Origin: Oceanimonas aquatica
Lineage (GTDB): Bacteria > Pseudomonadota > Gammaproteobacteria > Enterobacterales > Aeromonadaceae
Direction: 5' to 3'
DNA: 64,000 nucleotides
Assembly: GCF_030732065.1 (NCBI RefSeq)
Contig: NZ_JAVBHX010000005.1
Location: 124,001 to 188,000 of the forward strand
This document shows positions 6,257-63,025 of the stretch, one piece after another. Positions within the stretch are counted from its first letter, which is position 1; every line of letters begins with the position of its first letter. The notes under the pieces are model-generated. The model was given only the letters and a program-made list of their open reading frames with translations, made no database searches and was not told where the DNA came from. The position numbers were made by a program, and so were the translations under genes.

Positions 6257-6269
6257 GGCCGCCTCCGCT

Positions 6270-6461: not shown

Positions 6462-6569
6462 GGTGGTTTCCTCAATCAGTGTGGTAATCAGTACCCAGTA
6501 TCGGGGTTACCGCCACGGTAAGGTCAACCACTTTATTTTGCGGTGCCGGTGTCGGCGTTACAACCGCCT

Positions 6570-6962: not shown

Positions 6963-7093
6963 GGTGTTTCCTCGCGGATTTGAGTGGGCTTTGTGAACGG
7001 CAGAAAGCATAACAAGGAGGCACTGACGAAAGGCTGACATCACCATGACATTACTGTCATCTGGCGGGAGACCGGCTGCCGTCGAGTCGAGCA

Positions 7094-7121
7094 ATAAAAA
7101 AGGCGGGCACAAGGCCCGCCA
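7094..7121 (-). terminator. Rho-independent terminator of gabT
   Basis: On the minus strand a GC stem GGCGGG / CCCGCC with a 7-base loop (7102-7120) is followed by a run of six T. It lies about 30 bases after the gabT stop. Confidence 0.88.
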
Positions 7122-7151
7122 AATAACTTTGACATCGACGTATTCTCCGGC

Positions 7152-8432: not shown

Positions 8433-8455
8433 GATAATTCTCCTGTCTTTGCTGC

Positions 8456-45350: not shown

Positions 45351-45413
45351 TAAAAAGCCCTCTTAAAGAACCAGCAACTGGATCGCTTACCAGATCATAC
45401 ATGCCATGCCCGT

Positions 45414-45467
45414 CCTACTGGCAAAATCTTGGGCAGTTGTCGGGCATTGTCTTTTTGTGTCTAGCCT
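45414..45467 (+). promoter_or_regulatory. Inverted repeat upstream of the methyltransferase gene
   Basis: ATGCCCG and CGGGCAT (7-bp perfect arms) flank about 32 bases within the 173-base gap between helicase and methyltransferase genes. The spacing suits an operator or a hairpin; no controller protein gene is recognised. Confidence 0.3.
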
Positions 45468-45523
45468 TGGGTGCTTCGCTGACGCAGAATATGCGCAATA
45501 TTAATAATTCCCAGGGATAACGC

Positions 45524-48500
45524 ATGAACGATCAACAGCCACTCAGCTCCAACCAGACCCAGGTGCACAAGGCCAACCAGCGCCGGGACAAGTTTGCCCA
45601 TCTGCTGCGCGAGATGTTTCAGCTCAATCAGCCCGAGCTGGATTTTGGCCTGTATCGCATCATGCATGCCCGCAAAGACGATATAAACCGCTTTATCGAA
45701 CAGGATTTGCCCCGCCTCACCCGCGATGCCTTTGCCAACTTTGCCAGCAGTGACAAGGCCGAGCTACAAAAAGAACTGGATAAAGCCATTCAGGGAGCCC
45801 AAGCGCTGGAAATGGATCCCGATACCCTGCCCAAGGTAAAACAGCTGAAAGCCCAGCTCAGCGACGGCTTTGATCTGGCCCGGGAAGAAGGCGAGGTCTA
45901 CGATGCTCTGGTGACCTTCTTTAGCCGCTACTACGACGAAGGCGACTTTATCTCCCGCCGTGTTTACAAAGACGGCACCTACGCCATCCCCTACCAGGGT
46001 GAAGAAGTGGTACTGCACTGGGCCAACAAGGATCAGTACTACGTTAAAAGCAGCGAAACCCTGCGTGACTACAGCTTTCGCCTGAACCCGCATCCCAGTA
46101 GCGCCGAGCCCAACCCAATGCGGGTGCATTTTAAACTGGTGGATGCCGAAGCCGGCGCCCAGAACAACAACAAGGAAAGTGATAGCAGCAAACGGGTATT
46201 TGTACTCGACCACACCCAGCCCTTTGAGCTGCTGGAAGGCGAGCCCGACGAACAGGGCAACCAGCACACCGAGCTGCAAATTCGCTTTGTGTTCCGCGCC
46301 GCCACTCAGGATGACTGGCAGACCAACAGCGCCATTCGGGCCGAATTTGGCAAGGCCACTGTCGCCGCCAAGAAGAAGCCGCCGGTGCAGGGCGTGCTGG
46401 TGGCCAGCGCCGTGAACTGGCTGCTGAGTGCAGACAGCCAGCTGCCCGAGCAATGGCGCAAGCAACTGGCTCTGCCCTACACCAAGGCCGATGGCGAGCC
46501 CGCCGACTACAGCCAGCTGCAGGGCCAGCTCAACAACTACACCAAGAAAAACAGCTTCGATTACTTTATTCACAAGGATCTGGGCGGCTTTCTCACCCGC
46601 GAGCTGGATTTTTACATCAAAAATGAATTGCTCAGCTGGGACGACCTGGCTGCCCTCAAGCACAACCCGGCCCGGCTGGCACCGCTGCTGAGCAAGGTGG
46701 AAGTGATCCGCAAACTGGGCGAAAACATCATCGCCTTTCTGGCCCAGCTGGAGAACTTTCAGAAAAAGCTGTGGCTGAAAAAGAAGTTCGTTACCGACAT
46801 CCAGTATTGCCTCACCCTCGACCGCCTGTCCGAACACGACACCCTGCTTGCCCAGGTGTTTGACAATCCCGCCCAGCAGGCGGACTGGGCCACCCTTTAC
46901 GGGCTGGATTTGGCTCAGTTGCAAAAGGATCTGGAGCAAAATGGCCCGGCCGGGCTGCTGCCGCAGGCCAGATATCGCTACCTGATGCTGGATACCCGTC
47001 ACTTTAGCCCTGAGTTCAAGGCGCAACTGCTGGCCACCATGGACGATCTGGATCAGCAATGCGACGGCCTGCTGGTGCACTCCGAAAACTTTCAGGCTCT
47101 GAACCTGCTGCAGGAACGCTACCGCGAGCAGGTAAAGTGTATCTATATTGACCCGCCCTATAACACTGGTGGTGACGGCTTTGCTTATAAAGATACATAT
47201 CAGCATTCAAGCTGGCTTTCATGCCTGAAAGACAGAGTTGATATGTCTTCAAGATTACATTCAGAAAATTCTTGTTTATGGATAAGTATTGATGGAAGAG
47301 AGCAGCCAAACCTCAGAAAGTTGATGGACATTAAATCCGAAAAAATGGATTTTATTGCTGACATCGCCGTAGTTAACAATTGGAAAGGAAGGCAGGATAA
47401 AGAGCACATTGCAACTGCTCATGAAAATGTTCTTTTATATGCAAAGGAAAACTTTGAGTCCAACGGTTTCCCTTTAAGTGAAGATAAAATATCAGACTAT
47501 AAGCTCTCTGATTCTAACGGCCTAAAGTACTCCTTACGGGATCTCAGAAAGCGTGGTGGTGCCGACACCAGAGAGGAAAGACCAAATATGTTTTTCCCTA
47601 TATATTGGAGCCCATCAGAAAGAACAGCTTCAATCACAAGAAAAAATATTGATGATATTGAGATATATCCGAAGAAATCTGATAACTCTGATGGATGCTG
47701 GCGTTGGGGAAAAGATACGGTACAAAAAAACATCGAGATAATCGAATGTTCTAAAGTCGATGATGTGCGCTGGAACTGTAGCTATCGTATTTATTTAGAA
47801 AATGATGGAAAAGTAAGGACATCAAAACCAAAATCCACTTGGATTGGTAGCCGCTACTCAACCGACGGTGGTGGTAAAACCCTTAGGAATATTATACCTA
47901 ACACTGATTTTTCTTCACCGAAGTCATTATACTTTCTGAAGGATATACTTATCCATTCAATGGATAATGATGAAGTAACGCTTGATTTCTTCGCAGGTTC
48001 TGGCACCACCGGCCATGCCGTGATTGACCTTAACCGTGAGGATAACGGCCAGCGAAAATACCTGCTGGTGGAGATGGGTGATTACTTCGACACTGTGCTT
48101 AAACCCCGCATTCAGAAAGTGGTCTATGCCGACAACTGGAAAGCCGGTGCTCCCGTGGCAAACGAGGATGGCGGCTTCAACGGTGTATCTCATTGCTTCA
48201 AGTATATTCGCCTGGAAAGCTATGAAGACGCCCTGGGTAATCTGAGCCTGCAGCGCAGCATGGGCCAGCAGTCGCTACTGGACTCGTTCGATAACGAAGC
48301 GCTGGATGCCGCCCGCCAGAGCTATGTGATGAACTACCTGCTGGAGGTGGAAACCCGAGGCTCCGCTTCTCTGCTCAATACCAGGCTGTTTACCGATCCC
48401 ACCGCCTATCAGCTAAATGTGCGCTCCGCCGGCGGTGATGAAACCCGCGCGGTTAAGGTTGATTTGCTGGAAACCTTTAACTACCTGCTGGGCCTGACCG

Positions 48501-48961
48501 TAGAGCATATTGCCCCGCCCCTGTGGTTTGATGCCGACCTAAGCCAGGCCGAACTGGGTCGCTGGCAGGCCACGGTAAAGCACATTGATCAGGCCGAACT
48601 GAACACCATGGACGAAAACCAACGCGGCCGGCTGTGGTGGTTCCGCACCGTATACGGCGTTAACCGCGCCGGCCAGAAGGTACTGGTGGTATGGCGCAAC
48701 CTGCCTTCCATGCTGGCACAAGAAGACAAGGGTTTGCTGAAAGACAACGCCGTACTCGATGCCGTGCTGCTGGAGAAACTGAACATTCGCCTCACCGCCA
48801 GCCAGGATGACGAAGTAGACATTCTCTATGTAAACGGCGACCACAACATTGCCATTCCCAAAAACCGCCGGGGCGAGCCCATGGAAGAGGCCCGAGTGCA
48901 AATGATTGAAGAAGCCTTTCACCGGCTGATGTTTGCAAACACCGACGGCAACGCACTGTAA
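45524..48961 (+). CDS. Long type III-like adenine DNA methyltransferase (Mod-like)
   Basis: 1145 residues, much longer than classical type III Mod (about 600-650). A helical N-terminal part of about 520 residues of unknown role precedes the methylase. Motif IV is IDPPYNTGG (Asp543), and motif I is DFFAGSGTTGHAV (Asp821), so the order is the beta class with the target-recognition region (about 550-815) between. That region (47170-47980) is visibly AT-rich while both sides are GC-rich. Ribosome site AGGGA. The next gene begins 10 bases later. Confidence 0.9.
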   Translation: MNDQQPLSSNQTQVHKANQRRDKFAHLLREMFQLNQPELDFGLYRIMHARKDDINRFIEQDLPRLTRDAFANFASSDKAELQKELDKAIQGAQALEMDPDTLPKVKQLKAQLSDGFDLAREEGEVYDALVTFFSRYYDEGDFISRRVYKDGTYAIPYQGEEVVLHWANKDQYYVKSSETLRDYSFRLNPHPSSAEPNPMRVHFKLVDAEAGAQNNNKESDSSKRVFVLDHTQPFELLEGEPDEQGNQHTELQIRFVFRAATQDDWQTNSAIRAEFGKATVAAKKKPPVQGVLVASAVNWLLSADSQLPEQWRKQLALPYTKADGEPADYSQLQGQLNNYTKKNSFDYFIHKDLGGFLTRELDFYIKNELLSWDDLAALKHNPARLAPLLSKVEVIRKLGENIIAFLAQLENFQKKLWLKKKFVTDIQYCLTLDRLSEHDTLLAQVFDNPAQQADWATLYGLDLAQLQKDLEQNGPAGLLPQARYRYLMLDTRHFSPEFKAQLLATMDDLDQQCDGLLVHSENFQALNLLQERYREQVKCIYIDPPYNTGGDGFAYKDTYQHSSWLSCLKDRVDMSSRLHSENSCLWISIDGREQPNLRKLMDIKSEKMDFIADIAVVNNWKGRQDKEHIATAHENVLLYAKENFESNGFPLSEDKISDYKLSDSNGLKYSLRDLRKRGGADTREERPNMFFPIYWSPSERTASITRKNIDDIEIYPKKSDNSDGCWRWGKDTVQKNIEIIECSKVDDVRWNCSYRIYLENDGKVRTSKPKSTWIGSRYSTDGGGKTLRNIIPNTDFSSPKSLYFLKDILIHSMDNDEVTLDFFAGSGTTGHAVIDLNREDNGQRKYLLVEMGDYFDTVLKPRIQKVVYADNWKAGAPVANEDGGFNGVSHCFKYIRLESYEDALGNLSLQRSMGQQSLLDSFDNEALDAARQSYVMNYLLEVETRGSASLLNTRLFTDPTAYQLNVRSAGGDETRAVKVDLLETFNYLLGLTVEHIAPPLWFDADLSQAELGRWQATVKHIDQAELNTMDENQRGRLWWFRTVYGVNRAGQKVLVVWRNLPSMLAQEDKGLLKDNAVLDAVLLEKLNIRLTASQDDEVDILYVNGDHNIAIPKNRRGEPMEEARVQMIEEAFHRLMFANTDGNAL

Positions 48962-48971
48962 GGGGAGCACA

Positions 48972-51900
48972 ATGGCAACGGAACCTAAAAAAACCGGCAA
49001 GGCCGGCGGTGTGCGCGGCAAAAAAGGCCAGAAAAATACGCTGGAATTTCGTCACCACCTGGTGCTCAACCAGTGGCTGTTTTCTCTGTTCGGGTTCGAC
49101 GCCGTATCCGGCCGTTACCCGGTAGATAAAACCGGCCAGCGCGAAGCCGCCACCCTGGAAGCCTTTCGTGATCGCTTTCAGCTGATGGGAGATGTCACCG
49201 GCCGCAACAGCGACGGCATACACCACATCATCGAAGCCATTATTCAGAACTTTGATAATGGCCCCGGGCAGATAGACACCAACCGCATCAAGCTGACCGA
49301 AGAGCAGTTGCTGGACTACGATCGCCACATCAAGCAGCTCACCGACAAGATCAACCAGTCACGCCTGAGCGCCGGTGAAACAGAGCTGGAATGGAAGTAT
49401 TTTCAGTATCTTACGCTGCTGTTTACCGAAATTTATCTGGACTATTTCTTTACCCGACCAGACGAACTGCTGACCGAGCTGAATGAGCAAATTCAGCGCT
49501 GGAACCAGCACTGGCTGGATGAAAAGGACTACAATCACAAGCCGCTGGCGCTGCTGAATCCGGACGACGACCTCTGGCCGCAGCTAAGCCGGATTGCCTT
49601 CTGGAGTGCCACCGGCTCGGGCAAAACCCTGCTGATGCACGCCAACATTCAGCAGTTCCGCTATTACCTCAAGCGCTTTGGCAAGGCCAGAGACATTAAC
49701 AACATCATACTGCTGACACCCAATGAGGGCCTGACCCGCCAGCATTTGCAGGAGCTTGAGATCTCCGGCATTGCGGCAGCCGAATTCAGCAGCCGCGCCA
49801 TAACCCCCACCAGCGATATGTTTTATGCCCAGAAGCCGGTGCTGGTGATTGACGTCAACAAGCTGCGCGACAGCGAAAAGGCCAAAACCGTGGCCGTAGA
49901 CAGCTTTGGCGGCAACAACCTGCTGCTGGTGGACGAAGGTCACAGGGGCACCGCCAGCGGCGGTGGCACCTGGTACGACTATCGCCAAAAACTGTGTGCC
50001 CATGGCTTTTCGTTTGAATACTCGGCTACCTTCGCCCAGTCGGGCGGCCAGCATGAGAATCTGCGTCAGACTTATACCAAGTCGATTTTGTTCGATTACT
50101 CCTACCGTCACTTTTACAGCGACGGCTACGGCAAACAGTCCCAGATCCTCAACCTTGAGAAAAACCTCGATGGCGAAGATGAATTCCGCTATCTGGTTGC
50201 CTCCCTGCTCAGCTACTACCAACAGTTGCGCCTGTTTGATGATGACAGTGAGCTGTTCAAACGCTTTAACCTCTATCGCCCTTTATGGGTGTTTGTCAGC
50301 TCCAAGGTCACCGCCACCCTGAGCAGCGGCGAAGCCTCCGACACGGTGCAGGTGCTGCAGTTTATTCAGCGGGTATTAAGCCAGCGTGAAGCCACCATAA
50401 ATGCCATTGATCACCTGCTGAACAAGGGGATGGAAACGGCCGCCGGTCGCAACCTGCTGAGTGGCCGCTTCAATTATCTTAAAGAGCTGGATCAGCCGGC
50501 AGCGGAGCTGTATGCCGACATTATGGAGCGGATTTTCCACACCAGCGGCGGTCAGCTTTATATAGAAAACATCAACGGTGTTTCCGGTGAAATCGCCCTG
50601 CGTGCCGGTGCCTCCGATACTCCCTTTGGGGTGATCAACGTTGGGGACGACGGCAAGCTGATAAAGCTGTGTGAAAAGCACGGACTCATTGCCCAGGATG
50701 CCCGTTTTGGCAGTTCGCTGTTCAACACCATCAACAGCGATCAGTCCCGAATCAATCTGCTGCTGGGCTCGAAAAAGTTTACCGAGGGCTGGAGCAGCTG
50801 GCGTGTCTCCAACATGACGCTGATGAACGTGGGCAGGAACGAAGGTGCCCAGATTATTCAGCTATTTGGCCGAGGCGTGCGTCTTAAAGGTTTTCAGAGT
50901 ACGCTGCGACGCTCCGCCGAGCTGGTAAATGAACTCAAACAGGCCGGCCTGGAGCGCCCTCGCCATATTGGCATTCTTGAAACCCTGAACCTGTTCGGCA
51001 TCAAGGCCGATTACATTGCTCAGTTCCGCAAGGAGCTGGAAGACGAAGAAATTCCGGTTAACCATGGCCTGATTGAATACGAGCTGCCGTTGGTTCCCAT
51101 GAAAAACCTGCCGAACAACCTGCCGGTGATTCGCATTAAACCCTCGGTGGCCGGCAAGGCCATTGGTGGTGCCGGATCTGCATTTCTGGAGCTGGCAGAG
51201 CAGGTAGAACTGCTGCCACCCAGCTATTTTTTAGCACAGGGCGAAACAGGCGCTTATGATTATTTCTGCGATTCGCCCCGTGTTCAGCTGGACTTTTATC
51301 CCAGGGTGGCTGCCTTTTCGACCGACAATACCGGCGAACAACTGGTAAAGCGTAGTACCCAGCGATTTACTGCCATGCATCTGGCACTGATGGATACCGA
51401 AGCCCTCTATTTTGAGTTGCTGGCCTTCAAGCGGGATCGCCGTTGGTCCAACCTGACCATATCTCAGGAGCAAATCATCGCTCTGCTGTCTGAAAGTGGT
51501 TGGTATGAGCTCTATGCGCCGGATCAGGTCATGGAGCTTGGCGAACTGGATAAAATCACGCTGTGGCACGAAATGGCCATTGCCTTGCTGCGTAAATACT
51601 GCGAAATGTTCTACGGTTATCGTCGCAAGCAATGGGAAGCCGACAAGCTGGAATACCGTCCCATTACCGAAAACAACAAATACCTGTTTGGTATTACCGA
51701 CACATCGCCCGAAGGCAGTTACACCCTGACCCTGGACTCATTGCGTCATGAGTCACTGATCAAGCAACTGGAAAACCTGAGAGGAAATCTGCTTGCAGGT
51801 AACATTGATAAGTGGAAAAACAAAATACTGGATGGACTGGAATTCCTCTGGTGTGAACGCCACTTTTATCAACCACTGGTTGCTGCAACTCAAGGTTTCG

Positions 51901-52388
51901 ATTTTCAGATCAGCCCTGTTTCTTTAAATAAAGGAGAAGCCCAGTTCGTTAAGGATCTGCAATCAGCATGGGAACAAAAACTGTTTAATGGTTACGAGTT
52001 GTACCTGCTCAGAAACCAGACCGGACAGGGTGCCGTAGGTGTATTTGTTGATGGTGGTTTTTATCCGGACTTTATTCTCTGGCTGGTTAAAGACGGCAAG
52101 CAGCATGTAATATTTGTCGATCCCAAAGGACTGCGTAATCATAAACCACAAAGCCCCAAGGTGAAGTTCCATAAAGCCATCAAGGAAATAGAAGAAAAAC
52201 TGGCCGACTCCAGTATTCAACTGGACGCCTTCCTGATCTCCAACACTCCCCAGGCCACACTGCTGGGTGACTGGCGGGATGACCAGGGCCAGCTGGTAAC
52301 GGAACAGCAGCTAAAGGACTGGCATATTCTTTTTGAGCAGGATGGGGTAGAGGCCATTCGTGATCTAATTAAAAAAGTAACCAGCTGA
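48972..52388 (+). CDS. Type III-like restriction subunit (Res), helicase-nuclease
   Basis: 1138 residues. SF2 helicase motifs: ATGSGKT (213-219), VDEGHRGTASGG (from Asp321), SKKFTEGWSSW and a QLFGRGVRL motif VI. C-terminal PD-(D/E)xK site: YPDFILW (Asp1033) and FVDPKGL (Asp1050, Lys1052). So it can move along DNA and cut. ATG 48972 with AAGGGGAG is chosen over the in-frame codon at 48933. Coupled to the methyltransferase gene. Confidence 0.9.
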   Translation: MATEPKKTGKAGGVRGKKGQKNTLEFRHHLVLNQWLFSLFGFDAVSGRYPVDKTGQREAATLEAFRDRFQLMGDVTGRNSDGIHHIIEAIIQNFDNGPGQIDTNRIKLTEEQLLDYDRHIKQLTDKINQSRLSAGETELEWKYFQYLTLLFTEIYLDYFFTRPDELLTELNEQIQRWNQHWLDEKDYNHKPLALLNPDDDLWPQLSRIAFWSATGSGKTLLMHANIQQFRYYLKRFGKARDINNIILLTPNEGLTRQHLQELEISGIAAAEFSSRAITPTSDMFYAQKPVLVIDVNKLRDSEKAKTVAVDSFGGNNLLLVDEGHRGTASGGGTWYDYRQKLCAHGFSFEYSATFAQSGGQHENLRQTYTKSILFDYSYRHFYSDGYGKQSQILNLEKNLDGEDEFRYLVASLLSYYQQLRLFDDDSELFKRFNLYRPLWVFVSSKVTATLSSGEASDTVQVLQFIQRVLSQREATINAIDHLLNKGMETAAGRNLLSGRFNYLKELDQPAAELYADIMERIFHTSGGQLYIENINGVSGEIALRAGASDTPFGVINVGDDGKLIKLCEKHGLIAQDARFGSSLFNTINSDQSRINLLLGSKKFTEGWSSWRVSNMTLMNVGRNEGAQIIQLFGRGVRLKGFQSTLRRSAELVNELKQAGLERPRHIGILETLNLFGIKADYIAQFRKELEDEEIPVNHGLIEYELPLVPMKNLPNNLPVIRIKPSVAGKAIGGAGSAFLELAEQVELLPPSYFLAQGETGAYDYFCDSPRVQLDFYPRVAAFSTDNTGEQLVKRSTQRFTAMHLALMDTEALYFELLAFKRDRRWSNLTISQEQIIALLSESGWYELYAPDQVMELGELDKITLWHEMAIALLRKYCEMFYGYRRKQWEADKLEYRPITENNKYLFGITDTSPEGSYTLTLDSLRHESLIKQLENLRGNLLAGNIDKWKNKILDGLEFLWCERHFYQPLVAATQGFDFQISPVSLNKGEAQFVKDLQSAWEQKLFNGYELYLLRNQTGQGAVGVFVDGGFYPDFILWLVKDGKQHVIFVDPKGLRNHKPQSPKVKFHKAIKEIEEKLADSSIQLDAFLISNTPQATLLGDWRDDQGQLVTEQQLKDWHILFEQDGVEAIRDLIKKVTS

Positions 52389-52477: not shown

Positions 52478-53179
52478 TCACAAAGCAGAATGATTTTTCT
52501 TCAGAACTTCTTCAGCCACATTGGAAAAAAACTGCCGTGTGAGGCTGAAAAATGGGCTCAAGGCATTGTTCGTAGGAATAAGGTCTATAGAAGCTAGATA
52601 ATGCAAATCCATATCGTTATCAAGGTGTTCCTGCACAAGCTCATCCAGTTCACTCCACCAGGCTCTTCGCCGATTTACCAGAAAAGAGCTGTTAAGGTTC
52701 AGCAGGTCAATGGTGTATTCCGCTTTATCTGTATCAGGGGCACTTAGCGTTGCAGAGGGAACAACACGGCCATCAGACAGATACTTGAAGTAACTCGCGC
52801 AGTCAGAGTCCAGGCACGAAACGAACCGTTCCTCGTCATAATTGCTCAGCTTGGCATGGCCACCAAACACATCTTCCAGTTGAGCAAGCTTCTCGCTGTG
52901 TATGGCACTCGCCGCCAGGTTGTGATAATCGAAGGTGCTCTTTGGATACTGGCTTTTGGGCTTGATGTGCTCAATGTGGTAGCCAATGCCTTCAAGATCA
53001 GCACGAATCTCGGAATAGCAGCAAAGCAGGAACTGTTCATTCAGCAAAAGCTGCTGCAACTTTCCTTTTTCTTTCAGTCCACTCCAGCGTTTTGCAGCTT
53101 CCTCACCGTCTTTTGGAGGCCGCTCGTTTGCCTTTTCAAGCAAGCGATGATGCACTCCCCGCTTGATGATTGTTTTCAC
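52478..53179 (-). CDS. ptuB: Septu HNH nuclease PtuB (retron-type HNH family)
   Basis: 233 residues. HNH core: YHIEHIKPKSQYPKSTFDYHNL with a later His (AIHSEK). The family, sometimes called the retron HNH, pairs with PtuA. Start is GTG 53179, overlapping the ptuA stop (GTGA). It lies after ptuA and should cut invading DNA when the ATPase signals. No reverse transcriptase or msr-msd RNA is adjacent, so this is Septu, not a retron. Confidence 0.88.
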   Translation of the reverse strand: MKTIIKRGVHHRLLEKANERPPKDGEEAAKRWSGLKEKGKLQQLLLNEQFLLCCYSEIRADLEGIGYHIEHIKPKSQYPKSTFDYHNLAASAIHSEKLAQLEDVFGGHAKLSNYDEERFVSCLDSDCASYFKYLSDGRVVPSATLSAPDTDKAEYTIDLLNLNSSFLVNRRRAWWSELDELVQEHLDNDMDLHYLASIDLIPTNNALSPFFSLTRQFFSNVAEEVLKKNHSAL

Positions 53180-54492
53180 TTTTTCAGCACCTCTTGCCTT
53201 TGGATACTGCGTTGCAAACGCACCAAGGCAGGGTGGTTCTCTCCCAAAGAAGCAGCGAGCTTTTTAAAGAGTGAGTCGGCTTCTTGTGTTTGGTAGTATC
53301 CCTGATCAACCAGCTCTACTAACCTATTCAGATCTTTTCTTTCGGCAATAGGCGGGTAAGGGTCAACCAACATAATGGTTTCCAGCACATCACTGCTTAT
53401 TTCACCATAACTCCGGGCAAGGGGGATCTCAGCAACAAACTTGCCATCGGCGTTACGCCCAATGGTACGGATACTCTCTTTGTGAACTGACGACAGTACT
53501 TGTGGGCTATGAGTACTCACAATGAACTGTATGTTCGGAAAGGCACTACGCAACGAGTTAATCACACGTTGCTGCCAGGCCGGATGCAGGTGTAAGTCCA
53601 CTTCATCGATCAGCACAATACCTGGCGTCAACTCAGGTGCTTGCTCATTTAAATGACCGTTTAGGCGAGCACAACGAAACGCGATATCTGCCACCAGAGA
53701 GATCATGGCGCGAACACCGTCACTCAACAAACTCACCGGCAACAGGCCATGATCCACATGCCACATCACCAGCTCGCCATGAGCAAAGCTGTAGTGAAAC
53801 TCGCTCCAGCCCTCATCTTGCATGGCCTGGTTTACAGCACGTTGTATACCATCCAGCCGGGGCTTTAAGTTGGACTTTTGATAGCCTTTAAACTCGGTTT
53901 CCTGCTGGGCCGAACGGGTGGCGTCCTGAACCCACTTCTGCATTTGTTTAAAGCTGGAAGATGAGGTTAGGCAGTCTTCATAGCCCAGGCTGCGGCTACC
54001 ACTGATAACCGACTTGCCCGAGACGTCCTTATGATTCACCCATAGGCGGCTTGACGGGTAGTAAGCCACCACCGGCAACTCGGTGTTGGGGTCATCCCGT
54101 ATCTCAGACTGAAGCTGCTTGCCCCAGTCGGCCAGTGGTGCGGCCTCTTTGGTCGTGGTGCGGCCTTTAGGGCTATTCAGCGCTCTCTGCCACTGTATGG
54201 CGGGCTCATCGGCTTCGGCCTGAATAACCACGGGGAAGTTTTGCTCGTTCTCAAAGCCGTTACCGACCACACTGAAACGGGCATCGGTGCGTGCTATCTG
54301 CTGTGACTTGCCCATGTCAAAGGCACCCACAAAGGGCCCCAGAGCAGCAGCAATGGCTTCCAGAGCCGTTGTTTTCCCCTGGCCATTACGTGCGGCGATC
54401 ACTGTCAACTCGGGATGGAACGTGATCTCAAAATCTTCAAATCGGCGGTAATTTTGCAGAGTTAGTTTGGTTAACTTCACGCCTTCCCTCAT
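53176..54492 (-). CDS. ptuA: Septu ATPase PtuA
   Basis: 438 residues from ATG 54492 (a TTG at 54510 is another possible start; the ribosome site is weak for both). SMC/ABC-like ATPase: Walker A ARNGQGKTTALEA (about 34-46), signature region LLSDGVRAMISLV and Walker B GIVLIDEVDLHLHPAWQQ, then the H-loop VSTHSPQVL. It acts as the sensor/regulator of PtuB in the two-gene Septu defence system. Confidence 0.88.
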   Translation of the reverse strand: MREGVKLTKLTLQNYRRFEDFEITFHPELTVIAARNGQGKTTALEAIAAALGPFVGAFDMGKSQQIARTDARFSVVGNGFENEQNFPVVIQAEADEPAIQWQRALNSPKGRTTTKEAAPLADWGKQLQSEIRDDPNTELPVVAYYPSSRLWVNHKDVSGKSVISGSRSLGYEDCLTSSSSFKQMQKWVQDATRSAQQETEFKGYQKSNLKPRLDGIQRAVNQAMQDEGWSEFHYSFAHGELVMWHVDHGLLPVSLLSDGVRAMISLVADIAFRCARLNGHLNEQAPELTPGIVLIDEVDLHLHPAWQQRVINSLRSAFPNIQFIVSTHSPQVLSSVHKESIRTIGRNADGKFVAEIPLARSYGEISSDVLETIMLVDPYPPIAERKDLNRLVELVDQGYYQTQEADSLFKKLAASLGENHPALVRLQRSIQRQEVLKK

Positions 54493-54902
54493 TACACAGT
54501 CAGCAATCAAACCGGTAGTTTACCTTTTCCCGGTCGTCGAGGTCGATGATATGCTCTCGAAGATTCAAAAGGTTCCTAACCAGGAGTCAACAAGACGGCT
54601 CAACTAGCTGAAACACTGCCCTACCTGGACCGTCAGCTGGCCATGTACAGCACTTCCCTACTCCAAGGTTTGAACATATCGGGTGGCCCGCATTTTCAGC
54701 CGAGCTCTAACACAATGTGGCGTGGCGACCAGGGGCATAGGGAGATGATCGATGAGCGTCACTACTTTATAATGTATTCATGTGTAGGTGAGTTCCTGGA
54801 CAACTTTGCCTCACCCACACAAAAGCCTGGATCAAAAAAGTGATTGGTTGTGAACTCCACCTTTATAAAGCCAGTGAAATCAAACCACATGAAAAACTAA
54901 AA
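54493..54902. other. Gap between Septu and the AT-rich operon, possible gene remnant
   Basis: A plus-strand frame open from 54580 to 54843 (66 residues from ATG 54643, MYSTSLLQGLNISGG...) has no ribosome site or recognisable family. It might be a remnant of a displaced gene. Otherwise nothing. Confidence 0.3.
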
Positions 54903-55385
54903 TCAATTCCATCTGTATGATAAAACCACACCATCAACATTAATCTCAGCTTCTAATATGTCACAACCATGTCTTATCAAAACCTTTCCGGTTTGCCCGA
55001 ACCCCAACTTCATCGGAAATATTCTCTTTGTGTCTCCCACATTTCTAATATCGTAGATAGGGCAATTACCTCTATTTACTCTTACGCCATTTATAGTCAC
55101 TAAATCTTCTCTTCCTTGTATCAGAAGATAGTGACTTTGACCTCCATAGCGGTTTGGCTCCAAACTAGAAGATACGTTGATAGATGAGGAAGTTATATTA
55201 GACTTAGACGATGAAGAACCTCCTTCACATTCAGCCTCCCACTCAGATAACATTCCATAACTTATTGGTGCTTCTTCGCCAACTACTTCCCTGTGAGCAC
55301 TTATCTTATCATCTAAACAACTTTCAACATCTGCAAATGCTACATTACTTAAAAAAAACAAAGAAACAAAAGCTGAACGACGCAT
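54903..55385 (-). CDS. Small secreted protein at the end of the helicase-nuclease operon (unknown)
   Basis: 160 residues, AT-rich. Residues 1-19 form a signal peptide (MRRSAFVSLFF...AFA). The mature part has a Ser-rich stretch (GGSSSSKSNITSSSINVSSS) and four Cys that could form two disulfides. Function unknown. It follows the 760-aa gene by 66 bases on the same strand, so may be co-transcribed. A secreted protein behind an intracellular nuclease system is unexpected. Confidence 0.65.
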   Translation of the reverse strand: MRRSAFVSLFFLSNVAFADVESCLDDKISAHREVVGEEAPISYGMLSEWEAECEGGSSSSKSNITSSSINVSSSLEPNRYGGQSHYLLIQGREDLVTINGVRVNRGNCPIYDIRNVGDTKRIFPMKLGFGQTGKVLIRHGCDILEAEINVDGVVLSYRWN

Positions 55386-55451
55386 CCCTAACTCCCTTAA
55401 TTTAGTATTAATCAAAAACCACGCTTGCAACTAAATATTAATTTAGTAAAT

Positions 55452-57734
55452 TCACTCCTCATAATCTCGATAGCTGCGAATAAAAATACTTGGGAATACT
55501 CTGCCAGCAAACCTGCCGATACGAATAAAATCAACGTCGAGGAGTGGCATTATCACTTCAGGGCTTGAATCACCTCGTAACGCATGCCATCTATAAATAC
55601 TTGGCTGGCGATTAATTGTCAAATTCAAATTATTCAAATCTCCTACTAAGTAATAACCTTTTTCAGCATCAAACCATAAACCAGTAAGACCAGGTATTTT
55701 CCTCAACCAAGTACGGGGATCATACACCGGACGTTCAATAAAAGATGATAATAGTATCCACCATTGCCCCATTACCTTTTTATCCCCTCCAATTAAATCG
55801 GAGGCTCTAGAGTTAAATTCCTTTCTTAACCTATTATAAGCAACACGGCCAAGTGAAAAATGATCGTACACTGTCTGCTGCCAACATTTGCAAAGTTCAG
55901 GTAGGCATTTCAATAATTTATCAATACGATCGCAATCTTCTTTTGGCAATGAAAGCAATGTTCTAACATTGTCTTCATTTATCCAACAATCATAGTCAGC
56001 AGGTAATAACCAGCTGCTCACCGGATACATACTTTTCCTCCCCTCAAGTAATGGCATCACTTCTCCCAAGCCATCTGGAGTAAGTATAGGAGTATGGTTT
56101 CCCGGGCTTTGTAAAAGCACTCGTTCTTTACCAATAAAAAGAACAACCTGTCGTTTCAAAAAACCATCAACATCCTTTCTTATTTCTTCTTCAGGTGTAT
56201 ATCCATAAGGCCAATTGTTAACAATTTCACCAATTAGCTTCTTACAATTTATATCATGACGTTCTAACAAACCATCTAGTTCCTTAACCACAATAGGGTC
56301 AGAGAGAGAAAATTCTACAACAACGGGTTTGTCCTTTGACAAAGTAAAAAGATAACCTTCAGATATTAGAGTAAGATCTTTGAGCAACTCATTGTGATTA
56401 GGCAAGTAGTCAGTAACAGTAGCTGCTGGATCCCGCATAAGTTGCTTGAAATGCAATTCTTTAACCGCTACTACCAGCTTTAAAGAGACAATAGACTTAA
56501 ACTCAGTTATCTGTTCAAATGTATAATCGAAGTAATCATCAAAAACCTGAGTAATATTATCTTCATCGTCACGAATAAACCACTGTTCGACAACAAAATC
56601 ATCATCCAACTCATAGGGATTAAGAATGATATGTTGAACTATACAATCATCAGAAAAATTGCGAGTGATTTCATAAGGGTCTTGTGGCAACCCTTTCCCC
56701 TGATCTAGCACAACTAAATAACGTTGGCACGGCTTCAACTTTAATTCTTGAAGATTAACTGGTTGATTAGAGAATAAATCAATCTTGATATTAAGCCCTT
56801 CATCCTCTAATAACTTCACGAACCACTTTTTCACTTCAGAAATAGGGGAATCTAAGTTTTCACGGGCATCAATTAAAGTAATCGGAAATTTTTCCAAAGG
56901 CAAAGATTTCAAGCGTCTTTTTTTATCTGGCTTATGCGTGCTAGGATATTTATCAAGATGAAGCACTTCATTATCCAGATAAAATCCATAATCATGGGCT
57001 GACTTAACATATGCAGATACAAACTGCTGAATAAAATAACTCCTACTAGTCTTTAAGCCCTCAGGTGACTTCAAGTCAATAAATGGACGCTGTTTACGAA
57101 TACCTTTAGATTTTTTAATTTCTTGATATAACTCTCCTAGCTCTTCATTTCCAGGAAACCAACGTCCAAGCCAACCATCTTGGTCTCGTAACCAAAGCTT
57201 CCCTGTTCTGGGTGATTCAACTTTAAGTTTCCTAAGACTTACATTACTAAATGTTATTTTTACCTCTGTTGTATTTTTGTCTTTCCGCTGACGAACTGCA
57301 CCCTCTATATCAATTGCTTCGATACCAGGATTATCACCACCCCATTCATTAAGCTTAAGCAATGGTTTACCTAGCGCTCGATAACCTCGAGTCTGTCCTA
57401 CCTGATGGCCAACTTGGCGCAGAATCAATTTCAACCATACAGGATTAAGTTCAGGCAGATACTCTACTTTCTCGGCCACCAAAAAGGTTTTATCTTGAGT
57501 CTGAATCCGTGGTAACACATGGCTTTCATCAGGTAGCGCAACATATAAATTTTTATTATACATGTAGTAAGGGTATGAACTTTCTGACAACTGCTCATCA
57601 AGACATTCTCGCCATTGCCACCACTTCATTCTACTCATGGTGAGCGGATAGCGATACACAACTAACTTACCAGCCAACGTAGAATTAATATTATCATCCT
57701 GATAAGTTAAAAAAGATGTTTTTAACTCTGCCAT
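55452..57734 (-). CDS. Large island protein of unknown family (partner of helicase-nuclease)
   Basis: 760 residues, AT-rich, no signal peptide or membrane span. I do not recognise a family. The N-terminal part (about 1-200) is rich in basic and aromatic residues (YRYPLTMSRMKWWQWRE). The middle part (about 290-400) has an alternating strand-helix pattern, with QRYLVVLDQGKG and IVQHIILNPYELDDDF, faintly like the MID-PIWI layout of Argonaute-related proteins, but no catalytic tetrad can be picked out. The C-terminal part has SIYRWHALRGDSSPE. It starts 11 bases after the stop of the helicase-nuclease gene, so they form one operon and probably one system. Confidence 0.7.
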   Translation of the reverse strand: MAELKTSFLTYQDDNINSTLAGKLVVYRYPLTMSRMKWWQWRECLDEQLSESSYPYYMYNKNLYVALPDESHVLPRIQTQDKTFLVAEKVEYLPELNPVWLKLILRQVGHQVGQTRGYRALGKPLLKLNEWGGDNPGIEAIDIEGAVRQRKDKNTTEVKITFSNVSLRKLKVESPRTGKLWLRDQDGWLGRWFPGNEELGELYQEIKKSKGIRKQRPFIDLKSPEGLKTSRSYFIQQFVSAYVKSAHDYGFYLDNEVLHLDKYPSTHKPDKKRRLKSLPLEKFPITLIDARENLDSPISEVKKWFVKLLEDEGLNIKIDLFSNQPVNLQELKLKPCQRYLVVLDQGKGLPQDPYEITRNFSDDCIVQHIILNPYELDDDFVVEQWFIRDDEDNITQVFDDYFDYTFEQITEFKSIVSLKLVVAVKELHFKQLMRDPAATVTDYLPNHNELLKDLTLISEGYLFTLSKDKPVVVEFSLSDPIVVKELDGLLERHDINCKKLIGEIVNNWPYGYTPEEEIRKDVDGFLKRQVVLFIGKERVLLQSPGNHTPILTPDGLGEVMPLLEGRKSMYPVSSWLLPADYDCWINEDNVRTLLSLPKEDCDRIDKLLKCLPELCKCWQQTVYDHFSLGRVAYNRLRKEFNSRASDLIGGDKKVMGQWWILLSSFIERPVYDPRTWLRKIPGLTGLWFDAEKGYYLVGDLNNLNLTINRQPSIYRWHALRGDSSPEVIMPLLDVDFIRIGRFAGRVFPSIFIRSYRDYEE

Positions 57735-57744
57735 GAAGCCTTCC

Positions 57745-60700
57745 TTAATTTAGTAGGGAACTACGTGATTTAAATTGACGAATAAGCTCGCACAAACCAA
57801 TAAAACCAGGAGTAGTAACATCGGGGGAATAAGGATCCAAACAACTCGAAAGCACAAAAATAGATGCATCACTAAATCCTACGGGTGACATTTTCAAATC
57901 AAAGCTTTTAAGAGTCGCATTACCATCAGAACCAACTAGGTTTAAAATTACAATCTTTGCTTCAGATGAAATAAGCCGGCGCAGCTCTTTTACCTTATCA
58001 GAAAGTGAAAATATTTGGCTACCTGTCTGCTCTTGGATTGCATTCTGAAAGGCTATATCTGCCTCTCTTTGTGTATCCATCCCCCAATATTTAGCATCAA
58101 TAAACAGTGGTGTTCCGGAAATATTAAAGTCATATAGTTCAAGAGTATTATTGTGCAACAGCTCTGTAGTACTAGTAATTCCTTCTTCATCAAGAAGCGC
58201 CCTAATACTCTCTTCTCCAATTCTCCCTTGTAAAATTCTTTGTGCAAAATCTGGATGAAATAGATACTGAGTCTCAAGACCACTGGCCACAGCCTCACTT
58301 GTCACATAACCATGCCGATTGAACCAGGTGGTAATCGCATGATGATGAGTTATCCAGCGATAGATAGGCTGTAACCTATAATGCCTTGCGTTGTAATCTG
58401 ATTCAGCCAAGAAACGTCCATCTGGATAGTACCAGACACCTTTCTCTGGATCTGCACCGCAAGGAAGGTGAATACAGGCCCAATCCTTAAGCGTCAGCTT
58501 ATCTTTTTCAAAAACTCCTAGTTCAGACCCTGTAAATGAGCATGCAAGATCTCGGCGTAGTGCTGCACGGCCTATTGACTCCCAAGTTTTATGTAGTGAT
58601 ACCACGTCAACATTGTTGTTATCTTTTCTTGACTTACGGATATTGCCAACAAGATATTCATCTATAATTTCTCTGATCTTTTCCCCTCGCTGAGCTGGAG
58701 TAAATATTAGAGCTAAAGGATCAACAGAGAAGTTAGCTTTTTGTAGGCCTTGTAATAAACCCTCATTAAGTGTACTGATAAAGTCTTTATGTTTACCATA
58801 TCCGTGAATATCATCAGCATATTTTCTTAACGTTTGCGCAAGCTCAGTTTGAATATAAATCCTTGTTTCTGGAGTTTTATCCCACACCCTCTCCATACGT
58901 CCAACTTGCTGCTGTACATCAGCAGCAAGATTACAGACAAAATCCGGAGTACTTTTGTACAGCGCATTATTTAACTGACTGACTTCACGTTTATTTGATC
59001 GCATCAATGCGCCTATATAGTGCCTGTAATCTTTCTCTGACACCTGAGCAGACTGACGCAACTTTTGAAGTTTACGTATCTGAGCTCCTATTGACGCCAT
59101 ACGTTCACCTGCATCTTCTTTATCAGGAACAGAGAAGTAAAAGTGTCTAGCCTCATAAAGGTATAGGCAGGTCAAATCAGTTCTCTTTAAAAGATCATTC
59201 TCCACAACCTCAAAATCAAGGTTGATACCATTAGTTGCCGAAGCAACCTGCGTGAATATTATGACTCTAAAATTCGTCCCAAAAGCTTTTGAGTATTGCT
59301 CTAAAAAAAGAGGATCTTTCTGGCTATGAGCTGTCAAAAAACAAATGATAACAACATGCCCTTTCACAATTACTGGCTTAAACCAAGGCGATTGTCCCAC
59401 TAGTAATGGAATCATACATTTATTTTTACTATCGATCTCATCATTAAACCATTCTAATCTCTTACGACTAGCATGTGCTGACTCTTCATTAAGCCATTTA
59501 CAGAAAAAATGTATAGAGTTAACATATGTCAAATGCCCTTTATGCTTATTATTACTTGAGGCAATATTCATAATTTCTAGCATAGCGTGCAGGCAGTTAC
59601 GACGATGTTCCTTAGTAGAATCAGGAATAGTCTCTCGATCATGTTGAAAAAAATCAGCAGGTAGATGATCTAATGAATCTGCTATATCTTTACCACTCGC
59701 TTCATCTTTACTCGTAAAATCAAACACTTCAACAGAAAGTTGATTGCATCGCTTACTAGCTTTTTTCCTTTTCAGGACATCAATCAGCTCACTCTGATTT
59801 CTAATACAATTTTCATGAGGTGTTATTGGAACTGGAAGATTGCCATCTTCATCCTTCCTTTTTCGTGCGATCTCATTTAAAGCACTGTATACCCACTTCA
59901 TATCAAAGTTACCCAAAGACCGCTCGATCATGGACGTGGCTGAGAGGCCAAAAACTAGATTTCGACTGGCAAGTGTAACTAAAATAGCCTCTGGTGTTGT
60001 CGGAATATGTGCACGTTTTTGAACAATACGTAAACTATCAAGTTGTTCAGATGCTCCTGTAAACATCCAACAGCTAAAACCATGAACATGAGCTTGAGTG
60101 TGTGGTAAAACATTAGTGTTTTTTAAGTCTACTAACTCTGGTAAATTAGTATTAGGAATAGCACCTAAAAATACTGCGTTATTTAGACTCTGATGATAGT
60201 GACCACTCTGATAGTCATTGACACTATTAAATAGAAGATGCATAAACTCATCACGCAGGCTACGACCAGATCCAATTTGGGCTTCAACTGGCAATCTAGA
60301 CAATCTGATCAGAGTATGACGTAACAGCTGTTCTAATTGAGCAAGGAAGAATCCTGCAGTTACTGATGTTTTAGAACGATTTTGAACTACCATTAGGCCA
60401 TGAGGAGCAGGCTCCAAATGAGTTGGTGATTGACTAATAGCATAGTCTGAGCGAAACAAATAGCGTGGTATAAACTCGCAACTGTCATCCCTAACTAATG
60501 CTCGCTGATTGGGAAAATCAATACCTTTATCACTAAGAGCAAGAAGTGTTTTTTCAAAATCACCTTCGAGCTCATCCAATATCCTAAGAAGTTCTTCATT
60601 TTTACTATTTGCAATTCTAGAGCGAGCGATCAATCGACTGCCCTCATCAACCAGCACACCCAAGCACTGGGGCAATTCCTGGACCCTTTGTGCCTGGCTT

Positions 60701-61596
60701 AACAACTCTAGTAATACAGGTTCTTGATACTCAAATTCATCTATGAAAACAACATAACCTTCAAGGTTCATGTCTCCCATTCTGGTTCGTTGTTGTCCAT
60801 CATAGAACCCATTGAAAAACTTATGAGTTGTCATTACTAAAAGCGGTTGATATTCATCTCTCCAGACAATAGCTGGTAATATTTTACGTATCCAAGGGTG
60901 CTGACGATACTGTTCCAGCTTTTTTAATCCTGGATTATCAAGACCTATGTTATTACGACGTTTACCTTTAGTCTTTATATTATTTTTTTGGCTAAGTTTT
61001 ACTAAAAAAGCCATATTTTGAAGCACAGCTTTCTCTAGCTGCTTGCAAGTACGCCCTAACTCTTGTTCAAATTGAAGCTTAAGGTCTAGATCATCTGGAT
61101 TTTGGCTTTTCTGAATCCGCTCCAGTCGATTAGCACGATTTTCAATCGTAGTACATAATCGATGTAAAACGTCGAGAGGACATAATTCATTAACCCACAG
61201 CTGGGCCTCTGACAGAGATTGAATATGCTGCTGCCATGGAAGCAGCTCAGTGGTTACGGATTCATGAGGTAGAGGTTTACCTGAGACAGCTGCCGACAGT
61301 TGTTCTTGGCGAGAATAAAGAACACTTAAAGGATGCTGGCAATCTATCACGTCACGTATCAATTCATGTAGGATATTCCAGCGATGTGTTACGAAAATCC
61401 CTTGTAGCCCTTTCGCTTTAAGGTAACTGAGAACAGATGAAACCTTTTCTGGACTGGGCTTGAAAAGTGCTGAGGTTTTACCCAGCCCTGTGGGCCCATT
61501 GACTTCAATTAAACCTGCAAGTGTTGATCCACCTGCCAAAGCGCGATTGATCTGCGAAAGATAAAAGTGTTGATATGAACATTCCCTGGCCGCCAT
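57745..61596 (-). CDS. Very large helicase-nuclease (SF2 helicase with C-terminal PD-(D/E)xK domain)
   Basis: 1283 residues, AT-rich. Walker A GPTGLGKT (34-41), Walker B VFIDEFEYQEP (Asp286-Glu287), motif III GLSATS (Ser552), motif V-like VASATNGINL (about 790) and motif VI QQVGRMERV (Gly899-Arg900). A long insertion of about 250 residues separates motif I and II. A C-terminal nuclease-like site is LYDFNISGTPLFIDAKYW (Asp about 1155, Asp1167, Lys1169). The layout resembles Cas3/DinG-type helicases fused to a nuclease, but I know no exact match. It is the first gene of the operon and is transcribed from the integrase side. Confidence 0.75.
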   Translation of the reverse strand: MAARECSYQHFYLSQINRALAGGSTLAGLIEVNGPTGLGKTSALFKPSPEKVSSVLSYLKAKGLQGIFVTHRWNILHELIRDVIDCQHPLSVLYSRQEQLSAAVSGKPLPHESVTTELLPWQQHIQSLSEAQLWVNELCPLDVLHRLCTTIENRANRLERIQKSQNPDDLDLKLQFEQELGRTCKQLEKAVLQNMAFLVKLSQKNNIKTKGKRRNNIGLDNPGLKKLEQYRQHPWIRKILPAIVWRDEYQPLLVMTTHKFFNGFYDGQQRTRMGDMNLEGYVVFIDEFEYQEPVLLELLSQAQRVQELPQCLGVLVDEGSRLIARSRIANSKNEELLRILDELEGDFEKTLLALSDKGIDFPNQRALVRDDSCEFIPRYLFRSDYAISQSPTHLEPAPHGLMVVQNRSKTSVTAGFFLAQLEQLLRHTLIRLSRLPVEAQIGSGRSLRDEFMHLLFNSVNDYQSGHYHQSLNNAVFLGAIPNTNLPELVDLKNTNVLPHTQAHVHGFSCWMFTGASEQLDSLRIVQKRAHIPTTPEAILVTLASRNLVFGLSATSMIERSLGNFDMKWVYSALNEIARKRKDEDGNLPVPITPHENCIRNQSELIDVLKRKKASKRCNQLSVEVFDFTSKDEASGKDIADSLDHLPADFFQHDRETIPDSTKEHRRNCLHAMLEIMNIASSNNKHKGHLTYVNSIHFFCKWLNEESAHASRKRLEWFNDEIDSKNKCMIPLLVGQSPWFKPVIVKGHVVIICFLTAHSQKDPLFLEQYSKAFGTNFRVIIFTQVASATNGINLDFEVVENDLLKRTDLTCLYLYEARHFYFSVPDKEDAGERMASIGAQIRKLQKLRQSAQVSEKDYRHYIGALMRSNKREVSQLNNALYKSTPDFVCNLAADVQQQVGRMERVWDKTPETRIYIQTELAQTLRKYADDIHGYGKHKDFISTLNEGLLQGLQKANFSVDPLALIFTPAQRGEKIREIIDEYLVGNIRKSRKDNNNVDVVSLHKTWESIGRAALRRDLACSFTGSELGVFEKDKLTLKDWACIHLPCGADPEKGVWYYPDGRFLAESDYNARHYRLQPIYRWITHHHAITTWFNRHGYVTSEAVASGLETQYLFHPDFAQRILQGRIGEESIRALLDEEGITSTTELLHNNTLELYDFNISGTPLFIDAKYWGMDTQREADIAFQNAIQEQTGSQIFSLSDKVKELRRLISSEAKIVILNLVGSDGNATLKSFDLKMSPVGFSDASIFVLSSCLDPYSPDVTTPGFIGLCELIRQFKSRSSLLN

Positions 61597-61710: not shown

Positions 61711-62910
61711 TTATCCATCCCTTGTTTGCGTAAGCTCATCTATCAAATCTGCCCACTCCTGCATCATGGCTTTCCGTTCGTCCAGATACTGGGCCTGGTT
61801 GTAGCTGGCCCTTACCTTGTTGCGCTCGGCGTGCGCCAGCTGGCGCTCTATTAAATCCGAACGGTAGCCCATTTCGTTCAGCATGGTAGAGGCAGTGGCC
61901 CGAAAGCCGTGAGCCGAGAAGCCAATGCTGCCCTTGCCGCTGAATCCCATACGCTCCAGGGCTCGGTTCAGCGTGGTTGCAGTCATGTAAGTATCCGGGT
62001 TACGCAGATTGGGAAACAGCAACGGTCGGCCACCGGTGAAGGTATGCAGCTCTTGCAGCAGCTCAACCGCCTGGCGGGAAAGCGGCACTATGTGAGGCTG
62101 GCGCATCTTCATTTTTTCAGCCGGGATCCGCCATTCGGCCCGCTCCAGGTCAAACTCGTGCCATTCTGCTTTACGCAGCTCTACAGTGCGCACAAAAGTC
62201 AGCAGCATCAGCCGCAGTGCTATCACTGTGGTTCTGTAGCCACCATACCCGTCCAGTGCCTTGATGAACTGAACAATCTGCTCTCGAGTGAGGGGTTTGC
62301 GGTGCTCAACCTTGGGACGGTGAATTGCGTCCTTCAGAGCGGCGGCAGGATCGTGGTCAGCACGCAAAGTGGCAACAGCGTAACGGAAGATGGCAGACGA
62401 CCACTGCCGGATCAGCAGGGCCACGGTTTCCGCTCCCCGTTCTTCTACTCGCCGAATAATTTCCAGCAGGTGGGCTGCCGCCACATTGCGAATGGGAAGC
62501 TTTCCGATATAGGGAAACACATCTGCCGCCATAAAGCGCTCAACCTGACGTTGGTAGTAAGGCGTCCAGCCGGGAGATTTCTTGTCTATCCACTCTCGCG
62601 CCAGCGATTCAAAGGTACTGGCATTCGCTGCCTGGTTCGCCAGCCGTTCCGCTTGTCGTTGGTGTGACGGGTGGAGCCCTTGCTTGACCAGGGCTCTCGC
62701 CTTGTCATGCGCGGTACGTGCGCCAGCCAGGCTCAGGGTTGGGTACTCGCCAATGGCAAAGACATTCTCTTTACCGGCAATGCGGTAACGATACCGCCAC
62801 AGCTTGGATCCCGAAGGTCTAACCTCCAGGTAGAGACCCTGTCCATCGGCCAGCTTCTGAGGTTTGCTGGCAGGCTTGGTGTTACGAACTTTGGCATCGG
62901 TCAGCGGCAT
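61711..62910 (-). CDS. int: Tyrosine integrase, P4/phage-island type (DUF4102 N-terminus)
   Basis: 399 residues from ATG 62910 (MPLTDAKVRNTKPASKP, the DUF4102 arm-binding domain). Catalytic residues: Arg in TFVRTVELR, His-x-x-Arg in SAHGFRATAST, His in LAHAERNKVRASYNQ and the nucleophile Tyr in SYNQAQY. It integrates and excises the island at pabA. The longer frame to 62979 would read through the arm repeats (HENCGYRCGYR) and is less likely. It points into the island. Confidence 0.93.
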   Translation of the reverse strand: MPLTDAKVRNTKPASKPQKLADGQGLYLEVRPSGSKLWRYRYRIAGKENVFAIGEYPTLSLAGARTAHDKARALVKQGLHPSHQRQAERLANQAANASTFESLAREWIDKKSPGWTPYYQRQVERFMAADVFPYIGKLPIRNVAAAHLLEIIRRVEERGAETVALLIRQWSSAIFRYAVATLRADHDPAAALKDAIHRPKVEHRKPLTREQIVQFIKALDGYGGYRTTVIALRLMLLTFVRTVELRKAEWHEFDLERAEWRIPAEKMKMRQPHIVPLSRQAVELLQELHTFTGGRPLLFPNLRNPDTYMTATTLNRALERMGFSGKGSIGFSAHGFRATASTMLNEMGYRSDLIERQLAHAERNKVRASYNQAQYLDERKAMMQEWADLIDELTQTRDG

Positions 62911-62913
62911 AAT

Positions 62914-62956
62914 GCGGGTATCCTGATTTCGATACCCGCAACGATACCCGCAATTT
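62914..62956. repeat. Right-end integrase arm-type repeats
   Basis: GATACCCGC at 62931 and 62943 plus an inverted copy at 62914. The stretch 62931-62956 matches 30161-30186 in 23 of 26 bases. The copies lie just upstream of the integrase ATG, so integrase binding could repress its own gene. Confidence 0.75.
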
Positions 62957-63025
62957 TCATGGATGGCAATAGACGCCAAAAACCGAAAATGGAGCTAAAG
63001 CACTGATATTTAATGATTTAGTGAT

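Follow-up and report, generated by a model that had tools for sequence, protein, structure and literature searches.

Oceanimonas aquatica carries, at positions 55452 to 61596 of a 64,000-nucleotide stretch of contig NZ_JAVBHX010000005.1 (assembly GCF_030732065.1, positions 124,001 to 188,000 of the forward strand; hereafter the window), two neighbouring genes which probably constitute a plasmid-defence system of the class represented by DdmDE and ApsAB, on a third branch of its own. Both genes are encoded on the minus strand. The first open reading frame (ORF; 57745..61596) specifies a protein of 1283 amino acids (aa), a superfamily 2 (SF2) helicase with a C-terminal PD-(D/E)XK-like nuclease, which is assigned to the DdmD homologues by motifs and homology, and the second (55452..57734) encodes a partner of 760 aa, which is proposed from profile comparison and a motif to be an Argonaute-like, guide-binding sensor remotely similar to DdmE. 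Each ORF starts with ATG and is open throughout, the gap between them comprises 10 bases (57735..57744), and the GC content of the pair amounts to 38.9% in comparison to 61.8% for window positions 1-29000. The description as two closely spaced AT-rich genes, given in an earlier sequence-only reading of this DNA by a model, is thus borne out by coordinates and composition. Since full-length relatives exist at 29-52% identity, helicase and partner are regarded as real conserved genes; the intergenic spacing in these relatives ranges from a 46-base overlap, which depends on the start codon chosen, to a gap of 9 bases.

The SF2 motifs and the C-terminal nuclease-like site recognized in the sequence-only reading could all be located by residue, with nucleotide positions derived from the ORF and referring to the minus strand. 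Walker A (GPTGLGKT) occupies residues 34-41 (61474..61497), motif II (VFIDEF) residues 283-288 (60733..60750), motif III (GLSATS) residues 550-555 (59932..59949) and motif VI (QQVGRMER) residues 896-903 (58888..58911). The nuclease active-site region, which is defined by motif and alignment only, extends from GRIGEE at residue 1124 to DAKYW at residue 1167 (residues 1124-1171; 58084..58227). Its counterparts in the DdmD of locus L017 are GALGEE at 1043 and DAKNW at 1087, and the DdmD-type proteins of L037 and L038 feature DFKHW without a GxxGEE match. By its sequence, the 1283-aa protein is a clear DdmD homologue, whose PD-(D/E)XK nuclease resides in the same polypeptide as it does in DdmD.

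This homology was apparent in both profile and pairwise comparisons with DdmD-type proteins. A seven-member helicase profile matched 7 distinct PDB sequences at E<=10, comprising five sequence versions of Vibrio cholerae DdmD (best E=2.5e-16), the DdmD of entry 9ix4 (E=3.2e-6) and, as the sole other protein, ArdA (0.19). The V. cholerae match bears the title 'Helicase/UvrB N-terminal domain-containing protein' and was taken as DdmD on the grounds that DdmE is present, too, in 8u3k, 9bgk and 9ezy, which are among its entries. Alignment of the helicase profile with four DdmD-type proteins, one of them cut by a contig end, by hhalign yielded a probability of 99.3 and E=1e-20 over 893 columns, the nuclease included, and end-gap-free alignment of the helicase with the DdmD of L017 gave 23.8% identity over 1074 columns (z 18.9, 30 shuffles). 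In a tree of 15 helicases, from which L041 and L042 were left out, ten window-type helicases form a clade with 100/100 support, the stem of which has a length of 3.7 changes per column; as branches are long and the placement of the outgroup is unsure, only this clade is relied on and the exact neighbour is not used.

Twelve loci with adjacent copies of both genes were examined, the window included. The others are a Proteus mirabilis locus (L006), two Salmonella plasmids (L007 and L011, the latter with the helicase annotated as two pieces), a Citrobacter plasmid (L008), on which the helicase start is lost next to IS1, the genomes G015 (L009), G543 (L010), G681 (L026) and G1156 (L041), and the Escherichia coli strains LF82 (L019), SC418 (L020) and WP4-S18-ESBL-08 (L035). 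The nearest complete relative examined, G1156, belongs to the host genus and shows 51% identity for the helicase and 52% for the partner, with a 9-base gap. A Halomonas metagenome-assembled genome (L002) reaches 64% over helicase residues 1-612, but this locus ends inside the helicase and does not bear on linkage. Within the host genus, the helicase is present in 2 of 23 genomes, its own counted, and the partner is adjacent in both. In addition, G1162 of the same genus has a DdmDE pair (L042:6416-11976, 1179 and 680 aa), and both branches thus occur in one genus.

Wider samples, each counting the own genome where it belongs to the group, were also searched. The partner was detected in 2 of 398 genomes sampled from the phylum and in 3 of 295 from the order. 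The helicase profile retrieved three genomes from the 398-genome sample (the own genome, G015 and, as a weak DdmD-type match, G078), three from a 147-genome sample (G015, G681 and the weak, DdmD-type G693) and three from a 75-genome sample (the own genome, G1156 and the DdmD of G1162). DdmDE itself was found in G078, G1046, G1069 and G1162. A DdmE model matched 3 of 149 genomes; its blank in a sample of 229 genomes says little, as it likewise matched none of 14 controls, and ApsB was found in none of 229. No relatives were encountered among viral contigs in three scans (partner, helicase alignment and partner alignment), and phage records, searched with the helicase only, contained no relative of it.

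Co-occurrence of the two genes, which the sequence-only reading had proposed to examine, found support. In blastn searches of E. coli, which would miss more diverged copies, the LF82 helicase and the LF82 partner returned the same 26 of 5426 genomes, 24 of the copies being near-identical, which amounts to about three independent cases. The matches are adjacent by position in 25 of these genomes, and in the 26th (L035), which was matched only partially, annotation places the genes side by side; one copy has the helicase annotated in two pieces and another the partner. All six plasmid-collection records with the partner contain the helicase as well. Conversely, 140 of the 146 helicase-bearing plasmid records have no partner match (by subtraction), and all of these are Salmonella according to organism counts. 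In the 24 of them that were listed, the helicase is covered up to residue 927, in 3 or 4 pieces. On the one plasmid examined, Salmonella Infantis NZ_CP016407 (L012, locus 5917-8778), it is annotated in three pieces ending at an IS630 gene, and no partner is present.

The partner protein can be placed only faintly, by a remote and local likeness to DdmE which keeps the same order along both proteins, is strong against shuffled alignments and gives a mixed picture against decoys. The family alignment of partner proteins (A10), used as a profile against five DdmE proteins, scored 34.0, in comparison to a mean of 17.0 (standard deviation 2.5, maximum 27.3) for 40 column shuffles. The local matches between A10 and DdmE are collinear, namely 217-262/205-252 (overlapped by 199-388/203-362), 444-462/374-392 and 590-797/498-670, and the lesser ones are weak when taken singly. 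The best match links the C-terminal region of the partner (residues 554-760 plus stop; 55452..56075, minus strand) with the C-terminus of DdmE: the C-terminal regions alone scored 31.3, against a mean of 13.3 (standard deviation 2.1, maximum 19.7) for 60 column shuffles. Taken as a single sequence, the DdmE of L036 scored 31.9 and exceeded all 153 decoys (decoy maximum 29.3); it aligns to window partner residues 220-388 in such a way that DPYEIT..Q falls on DPYPEL..Q. End-gap-free alignments of partner-type proteins with DdmE and ApsB overlap by 3-136 columns only and are uninformative rather than negative.

A second line of evidence is a MID-like signature, D-x-Y...Q...E-L-x-x-K, which in the window partner comprises D352, Y354, Q367, E426, L427 and K430 (56445..56681, minus strand). 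It is present in 11 of 11 family members, in 5 of 5 DdmE proteins and in ApsB, where it takes in the published residues Y409, Q431 and K489, and in none of 162 decoy ORFs; V. cholerae DdmE likewise displays it in its alignment. The step from Y to Q spans 13 residues in ten family members and 16 in L041, 13 in three and 15 in two DdmE proteins, and 22 in ApsB. With respect to the ApsB-type arrangement Y-x3-K...QG...K, the window partner retains Y, Q and K, has R at the +4 position and QH in place of QG. We consider the signature shared by the partner family, DdmE and ApsB a lead.

Several results weigh against the proposed assignment. The PADLOC models for DdmD and DdmE miss the window pair (0 families), the LF82 pair and ApsAB, although they detect the true DdmDE of G078, the only set tested, at 1.8e-232 and 3.9e-73. 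Single DdmE sequences other than that of L036 were equalled by decoys (L018 by 2, L038 by 24 and L037 by 39 of 153), the fifth, L042, scored only 22.5 alone, and the score of ApsB was equalled by 49 of 153 decoys. The MID region alone does not stand out in the comparison with DdmE (13.6; mean of the shuffles 13.4), the N-terminal region gives no clear signal (19.8, shuffle maximum 22.1), global hhalign is without signal, in BLAST the partner resembles neither DdmE (E=1.0) nor ApsB (E=8), and PDB profile searches with the partner return no DdmE. The signature was spotted by eye before counting, allows wide spacings and covers three clades only. Moreover, the residue at Y+4, which corresponds to K413 of ApsB, is R in the window partner, while its relatives have K, Q or T and DdmE proteins R, Q or H; K413 is essential in ApsB according to PMC11096173. 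Structure models of the partner are poor and were not used as evidence: the full-length single-sequence AlphaFold2 model has a mean predicted local distance difference test score (pLDDT) of 32, and with the fragment 270-450 (pLDDT 51.6) no Foldseek match in the PDB reached E<=0.001, the best 50 of 893 matches including no Argonaute. The small number of independent E. coli cases mentioned above belongs to the same side of the balance.

DdmDE is among the closest known systems. Shared features are the two-gene layout with the helicase-nuclease first, a helicase homologous to DdmD along most of the protein, the C-terminal nuclease motif, and the partner's D-P-Y-x12-Q followed by E-L-x-x-K, ordered as in V. 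cholerae DdmE, L018, L036 and L042. On the other hand, the helicase is only about 24% identical and falls into a clade of its own with a long stem, the partner escapes detection as DdmE by BLAST, PADLOC and PDB profile search, and the window partner has 35-38 more residues between Q and K. DdmDE is known from V. cholerae and, according to the reference list of PMC12409362, also from Lactobacillus casei. According to PMC12409362, DdmE is a catalytically inactive Argonaute which uses DNA guides and recruits DdmD, and DdmD travels along single-stranded DNA and cuts; PMC12904381 gives the same account with the two names swapped.

For ApsAB, a reference was identified in NZ_CP040390 (L028), an E. 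coli sequence type 38 (ST38) genome named in PMC8751382, by the published motif positions and a 743-aa ApsB. The system likewise combines a helicase-nuclease with an Argonaute-like partner bearing a MID-like Y..Q..K with ELxxK. As reported in PMC11096173, ApsAB removes plasmids, which is abolished by changes of helicase residues or of ApsB K413 and affected partially by a change in the nuclease, and it showed no activity against eight phages. The same paper tested a further E. coli system with 28/25% identity to ApsAB, which probably lies outside the window family, because the latter is without full-length likeness to ApsAB.

PIWI-RE and Hachiman systems also combine a helicase and a nuclease in a small operon. 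The sequence-only reading had named them for comparison, and this gave no kinship: neither window protein matches them in Pfam or PADLOC at E<=1. PIWI-RE membership was rejected as Pfam, which we take to hold PIWI-RE models, returned 0 families for the partner and two unrelated, chance-level matches for the helicase. Hachiman membership was rejected as PADLOC, the library of which presumably holds Hachiman models, returned 0 families for both proteins. Neither protein obtained anything useful from Pfam, NCBIfam, PADLOC or PHROGs.

The surroundings of the pair agree with the sequence-only reading, which had placed it beside an island integrase among known defence modules. The end of the integrase gene (61711-62979, minus strand; Pfam integrase domains) is located upstream of the helicase start, at a distance of 114 bases. 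The opposite flank comprises PtuA (53176-54510), PtuB (52478-53179) and, at 48933-52388, a type III restriction enzyme, followed farther on by a type III methylase (45524-48961), an SNF2 helicase resembling DrmD (42471-45350) and, at 38074-41833, CBASS genes for a patatin effector, a cyclase and an E1-E2 protein. The SNF2 helicase, methylase and restriction enzyme (42471-52388) possibly form one extended restriction system. A third gene, considered possible in the sequence-only reading, was not substantiated: the 175-aa ORF at 54903-55430 was rejected, since other genes are found downstream of the pair in the relatives examined. Close to the start of this ORF, a stretch resembling a signal peptide was noted by eye; the ORF has a weak PHROG match of unknown function and is apparently unrelated.

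In L006 and L035, and likewise by ORF layout in L026, the pair has a type III restriction system on one side and a DUF4268 gene on the other, behind which comes a relaxase gene of the MobH/TraI_2 type; traD is annotated in L035, and the layout of L006 and L035 resembles SXT/R391-type elements. In L009 (12426-18251, with a NACHT domain) and L010 (978-6803), the partner gene overlaps at its 3' end with a 1941-aa ORF, which may be another gene for defence. Downstream of the system in L019 (12584-16382) and L020 (12583-15612, in pieces), an ATP-dependent nuclease is paired with a UvrD helicase, which we take to be Gabija-like.

Taken together, the combination of a helicase-nuclease, a linked partner and a defence island, which had suggested a defence role in the sequence-only reading, is supported, and the gene pair is conserved in relatives. 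The mode of action can be conceived by homology, each step as well as the plasmid target being carried over from the published work on DdmDE and ApsAB. The 760-aa partner would bind a short nucleic-acid guide via a MID-like pocket formed by Y354, Q367 and K430, and the guided complex would locate matching plasmid DNA. Subsequently, it would recruit the 1283-aa protein, whose SF2 helicase would travel along the displaced strand while the C-terminal PD-(D/E)XK nuclease cuts, resulting in loss of the plasmid. The sequence-only reading had favoured an anti-phage role, but plasmids appear to be the likelier target, because both DdmDE and ApsAB are directed at plasmids, and no activity of ApsAB was seen against the eight phages of PMC11096173. 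A system in which the DdmD-like helicase-nuclease is brought to phage DNA by a partner recognizing something other than guide-matched plasmid is unlikely; the neighbourhood of PtuAB, a type III restriction set and CBASS genes and the only local DdmE likeness of the partner would fit it, yet some family members reside on plasmids or next to conjugation genes, as would be expected for conflict between mobile elements.

Membership in the ApsAB family proper is highly improbable, in spite of the same gene order, the QxVGRxER motif and the MID-like Y..Q..ELxxK in the partner. It was rejected because neither protein is alike over its full length (helicase and ApsA: BLAST E=1.3, end-gap-free z 1.3; partner and ApsB: BLAST E=8, end-gap-free z -0.7 at the uninformative overlap of 3-136 columns) and because the window helicase is devoid of the N-terminal extension of about 180 aa present in ApsA (Walker A at 34 versus 216). 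In hhalign, the helicase aligned with ApsA in the nuclease part only (E=0.052), and the equivalent of K413 is not conserved in the window family. Slimmer still is the chance of an island-borne pair for DNA repair or recombination without a role in defence. A helicase joined to a nuclease is a layout of repair enzymes, too, but this interpretation is opposed by the specific homology to DdmD, by the patchy occurrence in islands, on plasmids and next to conjugation genes, and by the partial, partnerless helicases on many Salmonella plasmids, which suggest counter-selection.

Regarding novelty, the term 'undescribed' used in the sequence-only reading holds at most at the subfamily level. Its verdict that the system could not be placed no longer applies to the helicase, nor entirely to the partner with its remote local DdmE likeness and ApsB/DdmE-type motif; a confident match of both proteins to one described system, which that reading had named as a refutation of its proposal, was obtained for the helicase only. 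Among the titles and abstract openings inspected in an open-access library, which leaves out most subscription papers, none describes the branch; it may be among the 'intermediate' sequences of PMC11096173.

Plasmids carry much of mobile drug resistance. Few plasmid-removing systems are known according to PMC11096173, and the present branch, found in islands, on plasmids and next to conjugation genes, escapes the defence profiles used. The divergence of its sensor is such that kinship is hinted at by profile comparison alone. The branch would add to the variety known among Argonaute-like sensors which recruit a helicase-nuclease. Whether this third branch of guide-directed plasmid elimination has a sensor that D-x-Y...Q...E-L-x-x-K joins to DdmE and ApsB as members of a single Argonaute-like superfamily of high divergence is, in our estimation, an evenly balanced question. 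In PMC11096173 (Zongo et al.), DdmE is said to lack the MID-like motif of ApsB, which the reading as one superfamily, if true, would contradict. The variable Y+4 residue would then point to another mode of holding the guide end, or to another guide, and a single signature of guide binding, shared by three families which are regarded as dissimilar, constitutes a testable claim.

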